Source: Deltaproteobacteria bacterium
Lineage (GTDB): Bacteria; Desulfobacterota; BSN033; UBA1163
NCBI GenBank assembly: GCA_018333535.1
Contig: JAGXTA010000005.1
Location: forward strand, 1 to 32,509
Direction of reading: 5' to 3'
DNA length: 32,509 nucleotides
The number at the start of each line of letters is the position of its first letter. The stretch's first letter is position 1. A program made the position numbers and the translations under genes. Below the pieces are notes generated by a model that did no database searches, was not told the origin of the DNA, and was given only the letters and a program-made list of their open reading frames with translations. Positions 15,478 through 21,885 of the stretch are shown one piece after another.

Positions 15478-15620
15478 AGCCAGTCATTTTTCGTATTCTT
15501 GAATTTATTTCTTCTTCGGTTGGCTACGGTGAGAGAGGCACAAGGTTTGCAGGTCGGCCTCCATGCCACCCTGATCTTCGAGATCGAACGGATTTCGGTC
15601 CAGGAGAAGAAGCGAGTTTC

Positions 15621-15794
15621 CATTCTTGATGGTCTCGTAAAAAGTCGAAAACCAAAGAAAATGTCATGCTGAACTCGGTTTCGAGTCGTACCGACTTGGT
15701 TCAGCATCTAACAAAATCAAGAACTTACGAGACCCTGAAACAAGTTCAGAAGAAGGGTGACAAATTGGGACTTTTTATGAGACCATCATTCTTG
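15621..15794. mobile_element. MITE-like element with 8-bp target duplication
   Basis: The direct repeat CATTCTTG occurs at 15621-15628 and 15787-15794. Between them the element of 158 bp begins ATGGTCTCGTAAAAAGTC (15629-15646) and ends with its inverted copy, one mismatch in 18 (15769-15786). The interior has a second palindrome ATGCTGAAC...GTTCAGCAT (about 15665-15706) and no ORF. It looks like a non-autonomous transposon. Its right target copy supplies part of the -35 box of vapBC. Confidence 0.8.
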
Positions 15795-15829
15795 ACATAC
15801 ACTTTTTTTTTGATAAAATATGTATCAAA
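15792..15829 (+). promoter_or_regulatory. vapBC promoter with overlapping operator
   Basis: TTGACA (15792-15797), 16-bp spacer, TAAAAT (15814-15819). The inverted repeat TTTGATA (15809-15815)/TATCAAA (15823-15829) overlaps the -10 box, as expected for repression by a VapBC complex. The first three bases of the -35 are within the element's target duplication. Confidence 0.65.
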
Positions 15830-15849: not shown

Positions 15850-16056
15850 ATGAAACGGACCAATATTGTCATTGACGAGCAGCTCATAGCCGCTGGATTG
15901 AAAGCGACTGGGATTAAAACCCGCAAAGCGCTGGTGGATTACGCCTTGCGTGACCTGCTTCGTCGTGAATCTCAGAAAAGGATTCTGGCATTGAAGGGAA
16001 AGGTCAAATGGGAGGGTGATTTGTCATCGATGCGTAAAGGAAGAGTTCGGTCATGA
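15850..16056 (+). CDS. vapB: VapB-type antitoxin
   Basis: 68 residues from the ATG at 15850, which follows GGGAGGAGAG. MKRTNIVIDEQLIAAGLKATGIKT and KALVDYALRDLLRRE form a ribbon-helix-helix domain of the VapB (DUF2191-like) type; the tail would bind the PIN toxin. Its stop overlaps the vapC ATG (ATGA). Confidence 0.88.
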   Translation: MKRTNIVIDEQLIAAGLKATGIKTRKALVDYALRDLLRRESQKRILALKGKVKWEGDLSSMRKGRVRS

Positions 16057-16454
16057 TATTAATTGATACGACCGTCTGGATTGACCTTTTCTCAGGACAG
16101 GGTACTCCTCATGTGGCCGCCCTTGAATCGCTCATTGCTCGTAGAGAAGATATCTGTTTATGTGGGGTCATTCTTACAGAGGTTTTACAGGGAATACGAG
16201 ATGATCAAGAGTATGCTAAGACACAAACCATCTTTTCCGACCTTTTGTACCTGCCGATGACTCGTGAGACATTTCTGCTGTCAGCTCATATCTATCGGTC
16301 TCTCCGGATACAGGGCATCACCATAAGAAATTCGATTGATTGTATGATCACCGCCGTGGGCATTGAGAACAAGGCAGCCTTGCTCCATCATGACAGAGAT
16401 TTTGACCTTATTGCAAAACATTTTGATTTGAAAATCATGAACTTATCAATCTGA
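16053..16454 (+). CDS. vapC: VapC-type PIN-domain ribonuclease toxin
   Basis: 133 residues, a normal VapC. Acidic metal-binding residues are visible: Asp5 in LIDTTVWIDLF, Glu in LTEVLQGI, Asp in SIDCMITAV and Asp in HHDRDFD. VapC toxins cleave tRNA or rRNA when the antitoxin is lost. It overlaps vapB by 4 bp. It appears intact. The primase-helicase gene starts 78 bp further on in the same direction. Confidence 0.9.
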   Translation: MILIDTTVWIDLFSGQGTPHVAALESLIARREDICLCGVILTEVLQGIRDDQEYAKTQTIFSDLLYLPMTRETFLLSAHIYRSLRIQGITIRNSIDCMITAVGIENKAALLHHDRDFDLIAKHFDLKIMNLSI

Positions 16455-16531: not shown

Positions 16532-19018
16532 ATGATTTCGTCAGAAGACCTTCAAATCCAACTTCAAAAAGCATTAGCAGAATGTGCCTCATTAAGGGAG
16601 GAAAATAGAAAATTAAAGAAACTTCTTGGTCTGTCTTCTGGTAAAATTGTTCCACCTCCCAAATTTATCATTTCAGAACCACCAAGCCCATATACTGCCA
16701 CAAGCCGTACAATCACCCATAACTCCTCGATAGAGGATCAGATAAATCTTTTCCGTTCTTTGTTCCGCGGGCGGGAAGATGTCTATCCCGTCAGGTGGGA
16801 AGGCAAATATGGAAATTCCGGATACTCTCCTGCGTGTGCAAACGAATGGAAGCGTCCCTTATGTGGTAAGCCCAAAACAAAATGTGCAGATTGCGAAAGC
16901 CGGGATCTCTTGCCAGTAACAGATGAAGTCATTAGAGGCCATCTCATCGGGAAACATATTATCGGGGTCTACCCACTTTTATTGGATGAAACTTGTTGGT
17001 TTCTTGCCATAGATTTCGATAAAAAGACCTGGCAGGAGGATGTAACCGCTTTTCTTGAAGTTTGCAGAGAGATGGGTATATCTGTGTCGCTTGAGCGGTC
17101 TCGGTCAGGGCAGGGTGGTCATGTTTGGATGTTCTTTGACCGGCCGGTTCAGGCTTCCATGGCCCGGAAATTTGGCTGCACAATCCTGACCCGTGCCATG
17201 GAGCAGAGGCATCAAATTGGTTTGGATTCCTATGATCGGTTCTTCCCAAGCCAGGATACTCTCCCCAAAGGTGGGTTTGGGAATCTCATCGCACTTCCCC
17301 TGCAATTTGCTCCTCAAAAGAAAGGCAACAGTGTTTTTATAGATGAAGGTTTCGAAACCTACCCTGATCAGTGGCGATTCCTTTCGACAATCAAGAGAAC
17401 CCAATGGGACAACGTAGAATCTATTGTCCGGGAAGCATCGAGAAATGGAGCCATCATTAATGTTCGCATAAGTCTGACCGATGGGGAAACTTCTGAAGAC
17501 CCCTGGACTTTACCGCCCTCAAAGAAGAGAATTGAAAAACCCATTCAAGGCCCCTTTCCTCAATCCGTTCGGTTGGTCCAGGGCAACCTGGTCTATATTG
17601 AGAAAAAAGGGTTACCCCAGGCCATGCTAAACAAATTGATTCGTCTTGCCGCTTTCCAGAACCCTGATTTTTACAGGGCTCAGGCCATGCGGCTCTCCAC
17701 ATTTGGCAAGCCACGAGTCATTGGTTGTGCAGAAGATTTTACCGATCATATCGGCCTTCCGAGAGGGTGTCTCGACGAAGCCCTATCAATGTTTAAAGCC
17801 CATAACATCAAAACCGAAGTTGAAAACAAATGTTTTGATGGTTCCTTAATAGACGCAACCTTTTGTGGTGAACTCCATCCTTCTCAGCAAGAGGCAGGCG
17901 AGAAGATGTTAGCTTACGACAGTGGCATTTTGTCTGCCCCCACTGCTTTTGGTAAGACAGTGGTAGCGGCATGGCTTATTGCTCAAAGAAAGGTGAATAC
18001 CCTGATCTTAGTGCATCGCAGACAACTTATGGACCAGTGGAGAGAGCGGTTAGCGCTGTTTCTTGACAAACCTATAGAAGATCTCGGTCAGATAGGCGGT
18101 GGGAAGACAAAGATTACCGGTTGTATAGACGTTGGTCTGATACAAAGTCTCATTCGGAAGGGTGAGGTCAAAGATGTGGTGGCTGAATACGGTCAGATCA
18201 TCGTAGATGAATGCCACCATATTCCCGCTTTTACCTTTGAGCAAGTCCTAAAACAGGTGAAGGCGAGGTATATCGTCGGCCTTACTGCAACCCCTGTTCG
18301 TAAGGATGGTCATCACCCGATCATCATGATGCAGTGTGGCCCGATTCGTTACAGGGAAAGCGCGAAGAAACAGTCAGCCACAAGCCCTTTTGAACACGCA
18401 GTCTTATCAAGGTTCACGGATTTCAGGCTGCCTGCTGGATTTACCGATCCCAAAATACAGGATATCTATTCAGCCCTTGTGGCGGATCGGCATCGCAATG
18501 AATTAATCTTTGACGATCTATTAAAGGCGTTAGAAATGGGAAGATCGCCCCTGCTGCTTACCGAGCGGACGGAGCATTTAGAATGGTTTGCAGAACATCT
18601 TAATGGCTTTGCCCAGAATATCATTATTCTGAGGGGCGGCATGGGCTCAAAACAACGCAAGGCATTAGCCGAACAGATTAAAGCAGTACCAGATTCAAAG
18701 GAAAGGGTAATCATTGCTACGGGGCGCTATATCGGCGAGGGTTTTGACGATGCCAGGCTGGACACGTTATTTTTAGCGATGCCTATCTCTTGGCGGGGCA
18801 CGCTCCAGCAATATGTAGGACGTCTGCATCGGCTTCATGATAATAAGCAGGTGGTACAGGTTTACGATTACGTGGATATCCATGTGCCAACCCTAATGCG
18901 CATGTATAAGAAACGGCTTAAGGGTTATGAGGCAATAGGTTATACGGTTCAAAAAGAAAAAGGGGATTTAACCCAGCAGCAAATCGAATATGAATATATC
19001 CAAAGTGAGAGCATTTAA
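16532..19018 (+). CDS. AEP-primase/SF2-helicase fusion (TOTE-type conflict protein)
   Basis: 828 residues. N-terminal coiled coil (about 5-32); Cys cluster C102, C111, C118, C121, perhaps a zinc knuckle; then a primase-polymerase-like core with FLAIDFD (Asp161, Asp163) and SGQGGHVWMFF (His197), the DxD and sxH motifs of archaeo-eukaryotic primases. An SF2 helicase follows: SAPTAFGKT (Walker A, 468-476), IIVDECHH (558-563), GLTATPVR (583-590), IATGRYIGEGFDD and QYVGRLHR (760-767). This architecture is the one I know as the TOTE conflict-system primase, thought to act against foreign DNA. The ATG at 16532 has only a weak ribosome site. It is codirectional with vapBC. A type I or III restriction translocase is the main alternative but would lack the primase motifs. 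Confidence 0.8.
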   Translation: MISSEDLQIQLQKALAECASLREENRKLKKLLGLSSGKIVPPPKFIISEPPSPYTATSRTITHNSSIEDQINLFRSLFRGREDVYPVRWEGKYGNSGYSPACANEWKRPLCGKPKTKCADCESRDLLPVTDEVIRGHLIGKHIIGVYPLLLDETCWFLAIDFDKKTWQEDVTAFLEVCREMGISVSLERSRSGQGGHVWMFFDRPVQASMARKFGCTILTRAMEQRHQIGLDSYDRFFPSQDTLPKGGFGNLIALPLQFAPQKKGNSVFIDEGFETYPDQWRFLSTIKRTQWDNVESIVREASRNGAIINVRISLTDGETSEDPWTLPPSKKRIEKPIQGPFPQSVRLVQGNLVYIEKKGLPQAMLNKLIRLAAFQNPDFYRAQAMRLSTFGKPRVIGCAEDFTDHIGLPRGCLDEALSMFKAHNIKTEVENKCFDGSLIDATFCGELHPSQQEAGEKMLAYDSGILSAPTAFGKTVVAAWLIAQRKVNTLILVHRRQLMDQWRERLALFLDKPIEDLGQIGGGKTKITGCIDVGLIQSLIRKGEVKDVVAEYGQIIVDECHHIPAFTFEQVLKQVKARYIVGLTATPVRKDGHHPIIMMQCGPIRYRESAKKQSATSPFEHAVLSRFTDFRLPAGFTDPKIQDIYSALVADRHRNELIFDDLLKALEMGRSPLLLTERTEHLEWFAEHLNGFAQNIIILRGGMGSKQRKALAEQIKAVPDSKERVIIATGRYIGEGFDDARLDTLFLAMPISWRGTLQQYVGRLHRLHDNKQVVQVYDYVDIHVPTLMRMYKKRLKGYEAIGYTVQKEKGDLTQQQIEYEYIQSESI

Positions 19019-19198: not shown

Positions 19199-21856
19199 CT
19201 AAGATTTCCAGCCGGAGGAGCCGAGAATCTGGGCCAGGGATTTGGCGAAGTTGTTCAGGACGGATTCATCCGGCAGGGAAACGGTCATTTTCAGGCGGCC
19301 ATTTTCATCCTTTTCCAGGCAGTCAGCAAGACGGTTTTTGAGGCTTTCTGTGAGAAGAAGGGTTTCTTCCGTCTCTTCTTTTTTCGGAAACATCTCCCCT
19401 ATGAAAGCAAAGGCCGCGCCCAGTAACTGGCCTCCTGCGGTTGCGATCTTTTCTTTCCGAGCCAGCCGCTCTACCTCCCTTTCGACCTCAGCTCTCTGAC
19501 TCTCATCGATTGCGCCATCCGGTTTTGTTCCAAGAAGGATTTCCAACCTTCTTTTCAGCTCCTCCATGCCGCTGGCGAGATCGACCGTCGTTACCCTGGA
19601 ATCCGGGTCGAGCGCGGCCAGGGCCAATTCATGTTTGGCCGAAAGGGTTCCCAGAAGTTTCTCTTCCAGGGTTTCTTCCGTTACGAGAAGAAATGCTTGA
19701 ACAGGCCGTTTCTGTCCCATCCGGTGAACACGGGAGATTCTCTGTTCAAGGACCGCGGGATTCCACGGGAGGTCCACGTTGACGACGGTGTTGGCTGCCT
19801 GGAGATTGAGGCCGATGGCTCCGGCATTGGTGGTGATAAAGAGCTTACAATCAGGGTCTCTTTGAAACTCGTGGATCAACCCCTGCCTCTTTTTCTGCGG
19901 GATGGAGCCGTCCAACCTCACATACCCGGCCTTCCGTTTTATCAGGAGCGGTTCAATCAGGCCGAGCATGGTCGTCCATTCCGAAAAAAGAACGATCTTC
20001 CGATCTTCCTCTGCGATCAATTGATCGATCAGATTCTCAAACTCCACCAGTTTGCTGGAATACCCGGGCGGCACCTTATCCACCAGGAAAGTGCTGTTTG
20101 CCGCCATCCTGCAGATCAACAGGGCTTTTTGCAGTCGCAGAAGGTCCATCTCAGAAATATATTTCTTGCAGATAATTCTCTGAACAACTCGCATCTGTTG
20201 GTCATGGAGCGTAAGCTGTTCGTCGGTGGGCGGAATTCTCCTGATCTCCGTCGTCCTTTGAGGCAATTCCGACATGACCGTTTTCCTCGTCCGGCGGAGG
20301 AGGATGGGTTTCAGCCTCTCTCTCAACTCATCCAGATTCTTATATCCGAGCACTTTTCCTCTTTCATCGACCATTCTATACCGATTATAAAAACGGAATG
20401 CCGGCCCGAGGCGCCGGTCGTCAATAAACTCAACAACCGAATAAAGTTCATCAAGGCGGTTTTCCAGAGGCGTTCCGGAAAGAACCAGGGCAAACGGGGA
20501 TTTAAGGGCTTTGATCACCCGGCTCGTCTTGGCCTCCCAGTTTTTAATCCTTTGCCCTTCATCAAGGATGATGAAATCCCATTTCACTCTTTCGATGGCA
20601 AGAAAATCCCGCAGAACCTGCTCGTAATTGCAGATCGTAAAGAAACACAGACGGTCGTATTGAGCCGCCCTTTCCTTGGCCGATCCCAGGACAACCTGAT
20701 GGCTTCGATCTGAGAACCGCATCATTTCGAGTCGCCACTGGGATTTTACAGAAGCCGGACAGACCACAAGAACTTTTGAAATCCCCGCCTCCCGGGCAAG
20801 CAACTCGGCAACCCCTATGCCCTGGATCGTCTTGCCGAGCCCCATGTCATCCGCAAGAACAGCCCTTGCGGTCCCTACAGCAAAGGCAATTCCATCAAGC
20901 TGATAAGGAAGAAGCTCCACCTTGAGAAGCGTCTTTCGAAGAGGATGGTTCTTCGGATCTTTTCGTATTTTATCGACCTGGCTCTTAATCCGCTCCAGGT
21001 AGAGTTTTTTGTTAAGATATTCTCCGGCATCAGGGTAAACGACAACCTCATGCCCCAGGTTTTCTATCTTCTTAATACACTCTAAGAGATCTCCTGCGTT
21101 TTGAACTGGGTGGTTTAAAAAGGGACGGATAAGGGGCATAAGATGACGATCGAGATTATCGGGAGCCAGGACCCGCAACTCAGTATCATTTCCGTATCGA
21201 AGATAAACTGCCAGGTTATTAACCTTGTAAGGTGTATTTCTTAGTTTTTGGCTGAATCGTTTTTTGACCTCTTCAATCACATAGAGAATATGCTTGCATG
21301 TCCCGAGGGTATTCTTCTTAAAATCAGGGCAGGAACAGTATGATTCCCCTTCTTTCCAGCCCCTCAGGGCAACACGGTAACTTTTTCCCGAGGCGTGATT
21401 GGTTACGGTGTAGTCGGTCCACAATTCATTCCTGTTCATGGGAGTCAGTTTCATCTTTTCAATTCGAGCTCTTTCCAGCCTTTCCTCAATGGCCAGTTTT
21501 ATAAGCTCATGGTCCTTCAGGCTTTCAACCGGCCTTCGCTCCGGCGGCGGGGCAGACAGGCCTAATGCCAGTTTTTCCTCGAGGATGAGAGAGAATGCAG
21601 CCCCGAGATGCACACATACGGTTGCACACCCGCTGCAACCAAAACGCAGAGATTTTGGCTTTTCAGGGGTTAGAGAAAAAGTGACGTTGGCATCGCCTAA
21701 ATCAACCCTGAACAGGTCTTCCCCCCAGGTCACCTGCCCATCGATGTCAACATCGTATTTTCCTCCTTCCCTGATCAAACGTCCTCCTTCAGGCCCAAGG
21801 AGTTTACAGGCTTCGCGAAAAGTGAGATGTGAAAGTTTGTCTTTCAGATTGATCAT
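19199..21856 (-). CDS. SNF2-family helicase with SWIM zinc finger
   Basis: About 885 residues. N-terminal block with a degenerate SWIM-like cluster CSGCATVCVH (about 74-83), then a full SWIM finger YCSCPDF...GTCKH (about 173-189). The SNF2 ATPase begins LLPYQLDGIAFAV; Walker A DDMGLGKT (about 336-343), LDEGQRIKN (DEGQ in place of DEAH), LSGTPLENRLDEL, and C-terminal NLQAANTVVNVDLPWNP and RISRVHRMGQ. Such proteins remodel nucleic-acid/protein complexes, perhaps aiding transcription or repair. ATG 21856 is preferred because GAGGGA precedes it by six bases; the ATG at 21862 abuts that site. It is convergent with the primase-helicase and lies 29 bp after carB. Confidence 0.88.
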   Translation of the reverse strand: MINLKDKLSHLTFREACKLLGPEGGRLIREGGKYDVDIDGQVTWGEDLFRVDLGDANVTFSLTPEKPKSLRFGCSGCATVCVHLGAAFSLILEEKLALGLSAPPPERRPVESLKDHELIKLAIEERLERARIEKMKLTPMNRNELWTDYTVTNHASGKSYRVALRGWKEGESYCSCPDFKKNTLGTCKHILYVIEEVKKRFSQKLRNTPYKVNNLAVYLRYGNDTELRVLAPDNLDRHLMPLIRPFLNHPVQNAGDLLECIKKIENLGHEVVVYPDAGEYLNKKLYLERIKSQVDKIRKDPKNHPLRKTLLKVELLPYQLDGIAFAVGTARAVLADDMGLGKTIQGIGVAELLAREAGISKVLVVCPASVKSQWRLEMMRFSDRSHQVVLGSAKERAAQYDRLCFFTICNYEQVLRDFLAIERVKWDFIILDEGQRIKNWEAKTSRVIKALKSPFALVLSGTPLENRLDELYSVVEFIDDRRLGPAFRFYNRYRMVDERGKVLGYKNLDELRERLKPILLRRTRKTVMSELPQRTTEIRRIPPTDEQLTLHDQQMRVVQRIICKKYISEMDLLRLQKALLICRMAANSTFLVDKVPPGYSSKLVEFENLIDQLIAEEDRKIVLFSEWTTMLGLIEPLLIKRKAGYVRLDGSIPQKKRQGLIHEFQRDPDCKLFITTNAGAIGLNLQAANTVVNVDLPWNPAVLEQRISRVHRMGQKRPVQAFLLVTEETLEEKLLGTLSAKHELALAALDPDSRVTTVDLASGMEELKRRLEILLGTKPDGAIDESQRAEVEREVERLARKEKIATAGGQLLGAAFAFIGEMFPKKEETEETLLLTESLKNRLADCLEKDENGRLKMTVSLPDESVLNNFAKSLAQILGSSGWKS

Positions 21857-21885
21857 GGTCATTCCCTCATTTTGTTCCTGAACAT

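Follow-up and report, generated by a model that had tools for sequence, protein, structure and literature searches.

An IS1182-like MITE with a core of REP-like hairpins at the upstream edge of a vapBC promoter in a deltaproteobacterial genome

What is the short, repeat-bounded sequence that lies directly before the vapBC promoter in this genome, how did it arrive there, and what has it done to the genes behind it? Our material is the 32,509-nucleotide stretch of contig presented above (the window), together with the rest of its genome and the genomes of relatives. A sequence-only reading of the window had described a 158-bp MITE with 18-bp terminal inverted repeats, one mismatch between them, and a perfect 8-bp target duplication. 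We favor an account that keeps the MITE and alters the duplication, and we place its probability at roughly 0.88: a non-autonomous MITE of an IS1182-like group, moved in trans, landed by a 6-bp duplication at the edge of the vapBC promoter. What began as one suspicious insertion is now a MITE family for which boundaries, duplication length, target consensus, and host range have been measured and a candidate helper named. The features of the locus are collected in Table 1.

Table 1. Features of the element and its surroundings (positions in the window).
Feature	Position	Strand	Remarks
Decayed C-terminus of FKBP-type peptidyl-prolyl isomerase (...LHATLIFEIERISVQEKK)	15538-15612	+
Left target-site duplication, ATTCTT	15622-15627		6 bp; 6-bp rule from 46 own copies, 230 in all
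MITE, GATGG...CCATC	15628-15787	none	160 bp; ends set by family copies
Left terminal inverted repeat, GATGGTCTCGTAAAAAGTC	15628-15646	+	19 bp
Core palindrome 1, TGTC-tagged REP-like unit (ATGCTGAAC ... GTTCAGCAT)	15662-15709	+	likewise in L002 and the second inverted-repeat family
24-bp palindrome inserted into the loop of core palindrome 1	15674-15697		identical 24-mer on contigs C157, C31, and C99
Core palindrome 2, inverted TGTC-tagged REP-like unit (TGTCACCCT...AGGGTC)	15731-15762	-
Right terminal inverted repeat, GATGGTCTCATAAAAAGTC	15769-15787	-	one mismatch
Right target-site duplication, ATTCTT	15788-15793		6 bp
Native vapBC -35 hexamer, TTGACA	15792-15797	+	begins with the final two bases of the target-site duplication
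Conserved VapB operator arm ATACA (ATACAC in most homologues), predicted	15797-15801	+	alignment of 7 promoters
vapBC -10 hexamer, TAAAAT	15814-15819	+	16-bp spacing
Conserved VapB operator arm TGTAT, predicted	15821-15825	+	alignment of 7 promoters
vapB antitoxin	15850-16056	+	PF09957; most likely start, from homology and upstream GGAGG
vapC PIN-domain toxin	16053-16454	+	PF01850

The element, its boundaries, and its copies

The inverted repeats lie where the sequence-only reading put them. ATGGTCTCGTAAAAAGTC stands at 15629-15646 and recurs, inverted and with a single mismatch, at 15769-15786, and two such matches to this terminal sequence, found twice in the window, arose in 0 of 100 shuffles. 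The element is real and far from chance, and it folds strongly both as a DNA hairpin (z = -5.8) and as RNA (z = -5.6). Its outer border is a subtler matter. The direct repeat around the element, first read as CATTCTTG at 15621-15628 and 15787-15794, is actually 9 bp long (CATTCTTGA), and because the inverted repeat extends into it, the window copy alone cannot fix the border between element and target.

We drew that border from the family. The window's own genome (G000; 4.39 Mb in 192 contigs, 97% complete) was examined as stretches around matches, and the 12-bp core of the ends, TCGTAAAAAGTC, occurs 70 times in it, as against once for the reversed control. About 46 intact end pairs enclose elements of 131 to 185 bp. 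When the element is taken as GATGG...CCATC, the flanking 6 bp are duplicated perfectly in 19 of these 46 copies (0.5 expected after re-pairing the flanks), and at every other length the flanks disagree. A stricter set of 230 copies, 42 from the own genome and 188 foreign, has perfect 6-mers in 18 and 100, respectively (118 total), and perfect 8-mers in 0 and 1. Flank identity in the own genome, with the element taken as GAT...ATC, is 0.82 at 6 bp and 0.26 to 0.40 at 4, 5, 7, 8, and 9 bp. Because the family flanks agree at exactly 6 bp, the window copy is 160 bp long, with 19-bp terminal repeats and the target duplication ATTCTT. The further copies with flanking repeats that the MITE reading called for are thus at hand, at 6 bp and not at 8 bp, in own and foreign genomes alike.

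The window copy, with 8 and even 9 identical bases on each side, does by itself invite a true 8-bp duplication of CATTCTTG and with it an IS group such as IS1595, ISL3, or IS66. We judge this very improbable, given the single perfect 8-mer in the stricter set and the 6-bp duplications that full-length partner ISs also carry (see below). An 8-bp rule predicts, moreover, a near-universal C before and G after the hexamer, and both are present in only 4 of 18 own and 12 of 100 foreign copies with perfect 6-mers. The extra C and G of the window copy are instead part element ends, part chance and target preference. The duplicated hexamer has the consensus A-N4-T, in which about 90% or more of the copies agree at positions 1 and 6; TC before it and GA after it are weaker preferences. 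Because this target is often flanked by C and G, the extra pair is expected in 12 to 22% of copies.

The defining features of a MITE are therefore present together: a short element (160 bp) with no plausible gene, terminal inverted repeats, 46 intact dispersed copies, 6-bp target-site duplications, and autonomous partners of the same end class in other genomes (L374, L370, and L366). Geobacter uraniireducens, formerly placed among the Deltaproteobacteria as well, has a MITE, Chunjie, that is comparable as described in the work that cites it (PMC10969869): its copies vary in size, have conserved terminal repeats, and are mostly intergenic, but differ in length at 178 to 235 bp. Some tandem MITEs in our set (L345, L339, L208, L221, and L187) share a single 6-bp duplication between them and look as though a second insertion had struck the target duplicated by the first; the GAT/ATC ends resemble the preferred target flanks.

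Host range and a candidate helper

The ends were found in 25 of the 59 genomes searched, other families of the phylum included, and were absent from several members of the own genus among those 59. A scan of public genomes returned at least 112 stretches, mostly labelled Deltaproteobacteria, Desulfobacterales, or Syntrophaceae, and the matches listed also included Nitrospirae (Nitrospirota), Schekmanbacteria, and Aminicenantes. The ends occur, then, in many Thermodesulfobacteriota and in some members of the latter three groups. The exact end sequence was not found in the literature searched.

The own genome yielded no autonomous copy in a search for ends 0.4 to 6 kb apart with matching duplications, and no copy there encloses a transposase. 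Full transposons with ends of the same class do exist, as IS1182-like elements of about 1.9 kb in other families of the phylum, outside the window's genome. The intact ones came from a protein search over 395 genomes. One (L374, in G391) is 1,924 bp long, has ends GATGAACTCGTCAAAAGTC and GATGCCCTCGTCAAAAGTC, is flanked by ATTGTT on both sides, and encodes an intact 591-aa transposase; another (L370, in G178) is 1,916 bp long, has ends GATGCACTCGTAAAAAGTT and GATGGTCCCGTAAAAACCC, is flanked by AATCTT on both sides, and encodes an intact transposase of 585 aa. A third (L366, in G054; 1,581 bp) has a broken gene between perfect end repeats. The ends of all three belong to the class of the MITE ends and differ from them at several of 19 bases.

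Two weak matches to ISNCY_1 (NF033593) in other genomes lay between ends of this class and led to IS1182-like elements. ISNCY_1 itself was, by name, the wrong family. The best family match of the transposases is NF033551 (IS1182; 155 to 164 bits, E values of 1e-45 to 1e-48). At about 160 bits they score below the NCBIfam IS1182 equivalog cut-off of 270 bits, which makes "IS1182-like" a safer name than "IS1182." Their domain architecture, PF13751 (DDE_Tnp_1_6), PF01609, and PF05598 (DUF772), is found above the Pfam cut-offs. D152, D361, and E487 are invariant in five transposase proteins and are the putative DDE triad, assigned from sequence only. Other candidates fell away: large end pairs in other genomes enclosed host genes between neighboring MITEs (such as those for a metallo-hydrolase and for a translation factor), the open reading frames adjoining unpaired ends were host genes only, and the IS1182-family copies of the own genus have different ends.

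Homology of the transposase (NF033551, PF13751, and PF05598), a length of 1.6 to 1.9 kb, and short terminal repeats all ally the partners with the IS1182 family. The duplication, like the score, sets them apart: IS1272 replaces inverted-repeat targets and makes no target-site duplication (PMC5678879), and ISPse1 has a 4-bp direct repeat (PMC3281130), in contrast to the 6 bp seen here. IS1182-derived MITEs as such are already known from Methanosarcina. Those of Methanosarcina acetivorans, whose partners are ISMac2 (PMC3852290), are likewise 160 to 169 bp long, with terminal repeats and an IS1182-family partner, in up to 14 copies; they have inverted repeats of 25 to 26 bp and direct repeats of 4 or 0 bp, however, where the present family has 19-bp terminal repeats and 6-bp A-N4-T duplications.

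We propose that a DDE transposase from a full-length relative with GATGNNCTCGTMAAAAGTC-type ends and a length of about 1.9 kb would recognize the 19-bp ends, catalyze transposition, and mobilize the MITE in trans. The element goes into A-N4-T hexamers of AT-rich intergenic DNA and leaves a 6-bp duplication; here it hit ATTCTT, at the upstream margin of a vapBC promoter that was already in place. The window copy is probably immobile today, because the search of this 97%-complete genome brought to light no helper whose ends match.

The vapBC promoter

The pair behind the element carries PF09957 and PF01850, and its predicted operator arms are conserved; its promoter may be autoregulated. Six vapBC homologues in other genomes (G014, G017, G023, G054, G060, and G091) all lack the MITE and conserve TTGACATACAC...TAWAAT...TGTAT, within a promoter block TTG..ATACAC...TAWAAT..TGTAT. 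The promoter of G014 reads TTCTTGACATACACA directly and is 77% identical. Judged by these homologues, the vapBC core promoter is native and predates the insertion, which lies at the upstream edge of the conserved block. No empty site at the exact locus was found, and in G014 vapBC adjoins another gene.

Part of what the sequence-only reading said of this promoter stands. The right target copy does supply the TTG of TTGACA, with TAAAAT 16 bp further on, and an insertion at the promoter that kept the -35 box agrees with the MITE-free promoter of G014. The statement that everything upstream was replaced holds for the sequence beyond about -38, which was displaced, and not for the conserved promoter and operator block, which is untouched. 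An operator TTTGATA...TATCAAA overlapping the -10 box finds no support; it is not conserved in the homologues, in which ATACA(C)...TGTAT is. The left flank was likewise read on the wrong strand: a short minus-strand match pointed to FKBP-type isomerases that members of the genus encode on the plus strand, and the remnant is the C-terminus of such a protein. The own genome has a paralogue with FKBP_N and FKBP_C on contig C4.

The right-hand duplication regenerated the -35 box, because the last TT of the target is the start of TTGACA, so that the core promoter and the predicted VapB operator survive, as the MITE-free homologues support. A 6-bp duplication can, in other words, restore a -35 box, and an insertion at a promoter then leaves the core promoter sequence intact. 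The effect is likely limited to displacement of the DNA upstream of about -38 and to a stable hairpin that now separates vapBC from the epimerase gene and the isomerase remnant upstream. For vapBC itself, the insertion was likely neutral.

Could the MITE have been recruited as a regulator of vapBC, as an outward promoter, a terminator, or a protein site, rather than having landed there by chance? The element ends 4 bp before the -35 box and forms a strong hairpin, and promoters and protein sites are known in MITEs of other families (PMC10969869), among them the Correia elements of Neisseria, likewise short MITEs near gene starts, which carry outward promoters and an IHF site. We nevertheless consider recruitment unlikely. 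A simple scan found no promoter- or terminator-like site inside the window MITE, the core promoter is conserved in homologues that lack the element, and no other genome checked has a MITE at vapBC. By crude calling of open reading frames, 36 of 40 copies are intergenic and many lie 20 to 100 bp upstream of an open reading frame, which makes the promoter-side position typical rather than exceptional.

Directly downstream of vapBC, at 16532-19018, lies a TOTE-type primase-helicase gene (AEP-TOTE, ResIII), possibly a defense gene. At 19199-21862 there is a helicase of the SNF2 type, perhaps with a SWIM zinc finger, that resembles the helicases of defense systems.

The core of REP-like hairpins

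The unusual feature of an otherwise mostly ordinary case is its core, a pair of REP-like hairpins of the CGTC type. In 37 of the 46 own copies a mechanical scan found palindromes with a CGTC/TGTC tag and a CCAG tail, one or two per copy, in agreement with the definition of CGTC REPs (CGTC/TGTC tag, stem of 8 to 9 bp, short loop, CCA tail). One unit usually abuts a terminal repeat, with its tag at position 19, and position 36, counted from the opposite end, is the usual start of the other. The scan missed the window copy, whose TGTC version is divergent and carries a long insert in a loop; this copy we read by eye. Pairing within the REP units is 0.84, against 0.65 after re-pairing, with only 11 distinct units behind these values.

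Such self-complementary units, which keep pairing while their sequence changes, and the strong folding of the whole would suit a conserved structured RNA or regulatory repeat that is not mobile DNA at all. The discrete ends, the 6-bp duplications of unrelated targets, the varied interiors, and the full-size ISs with ends of the same class speak for a mobile element, and we give the RNA or repeat explanation very little credence.

CGTC REPs, among them dRS3 of Neisseria, have been described mostly as inverted dimers, with no transposase dedicated to them (PMC3733652). The units picked up by the scan share their tag, their 8- to 9-bp stem, their CCA(G) tail, and their arrangement as inverted dimers; here, however, MITE ends enclose the dimer at a fixed spacing. 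This core, and a spread over several phyla, also distinguish the family from the Methanosarcina acetivorans MITEs. Another MITE family, whose ends AGACTGTGTCGTAAT...ATTACGACACAGTCT are unrelated to those of the present one, has a REP-dimer core of the window copy's type (L003 to L010 and L017; own-genome contigs C124, C25, C181, C169, C123, C72, and C189). Its elements are often lodged in the loops of CCCTCTCCC...GGGAGAGGG palindromes and, read by eye, seem to be flanked by duplications of 4 bp (TCAG, TGCG, and TAAA). Because the AGACTGTGTCGTAAT family carries the core type of the window copy, cores appear to have been exchanged between end families. It is conceivable, at somewhat less than even odds in our estimation, that CGTC REP dimers spread in Thermodesulfobacteriota and Nitrospirota as the cores of IS1182-type MITEs, exchanged between the GATGGTCTCGTAAAAAGTC family (6-bp duplication) and the AGACTGTGTCGTAAT family (about 4 bp), the REPs being either passengers or required transposition structures of DDE elements. 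For repeats reported without a transposase, the REP-dimer core offers a concrete route by which their dispersal can be tested.

The REP loops are themselves interrupted by smaller palindromes. The 24-bp micro-palindrome CTCGGTTTCGAGTCGTACCGACTT in the loop of the window copy stands alone elsewhere (L014, L016, and L052), and other small palindromes, CCTGCGGCAGG and TCCCGCTCTTAGCGGGA, likewise interrupt the REP loops of sibling copies.
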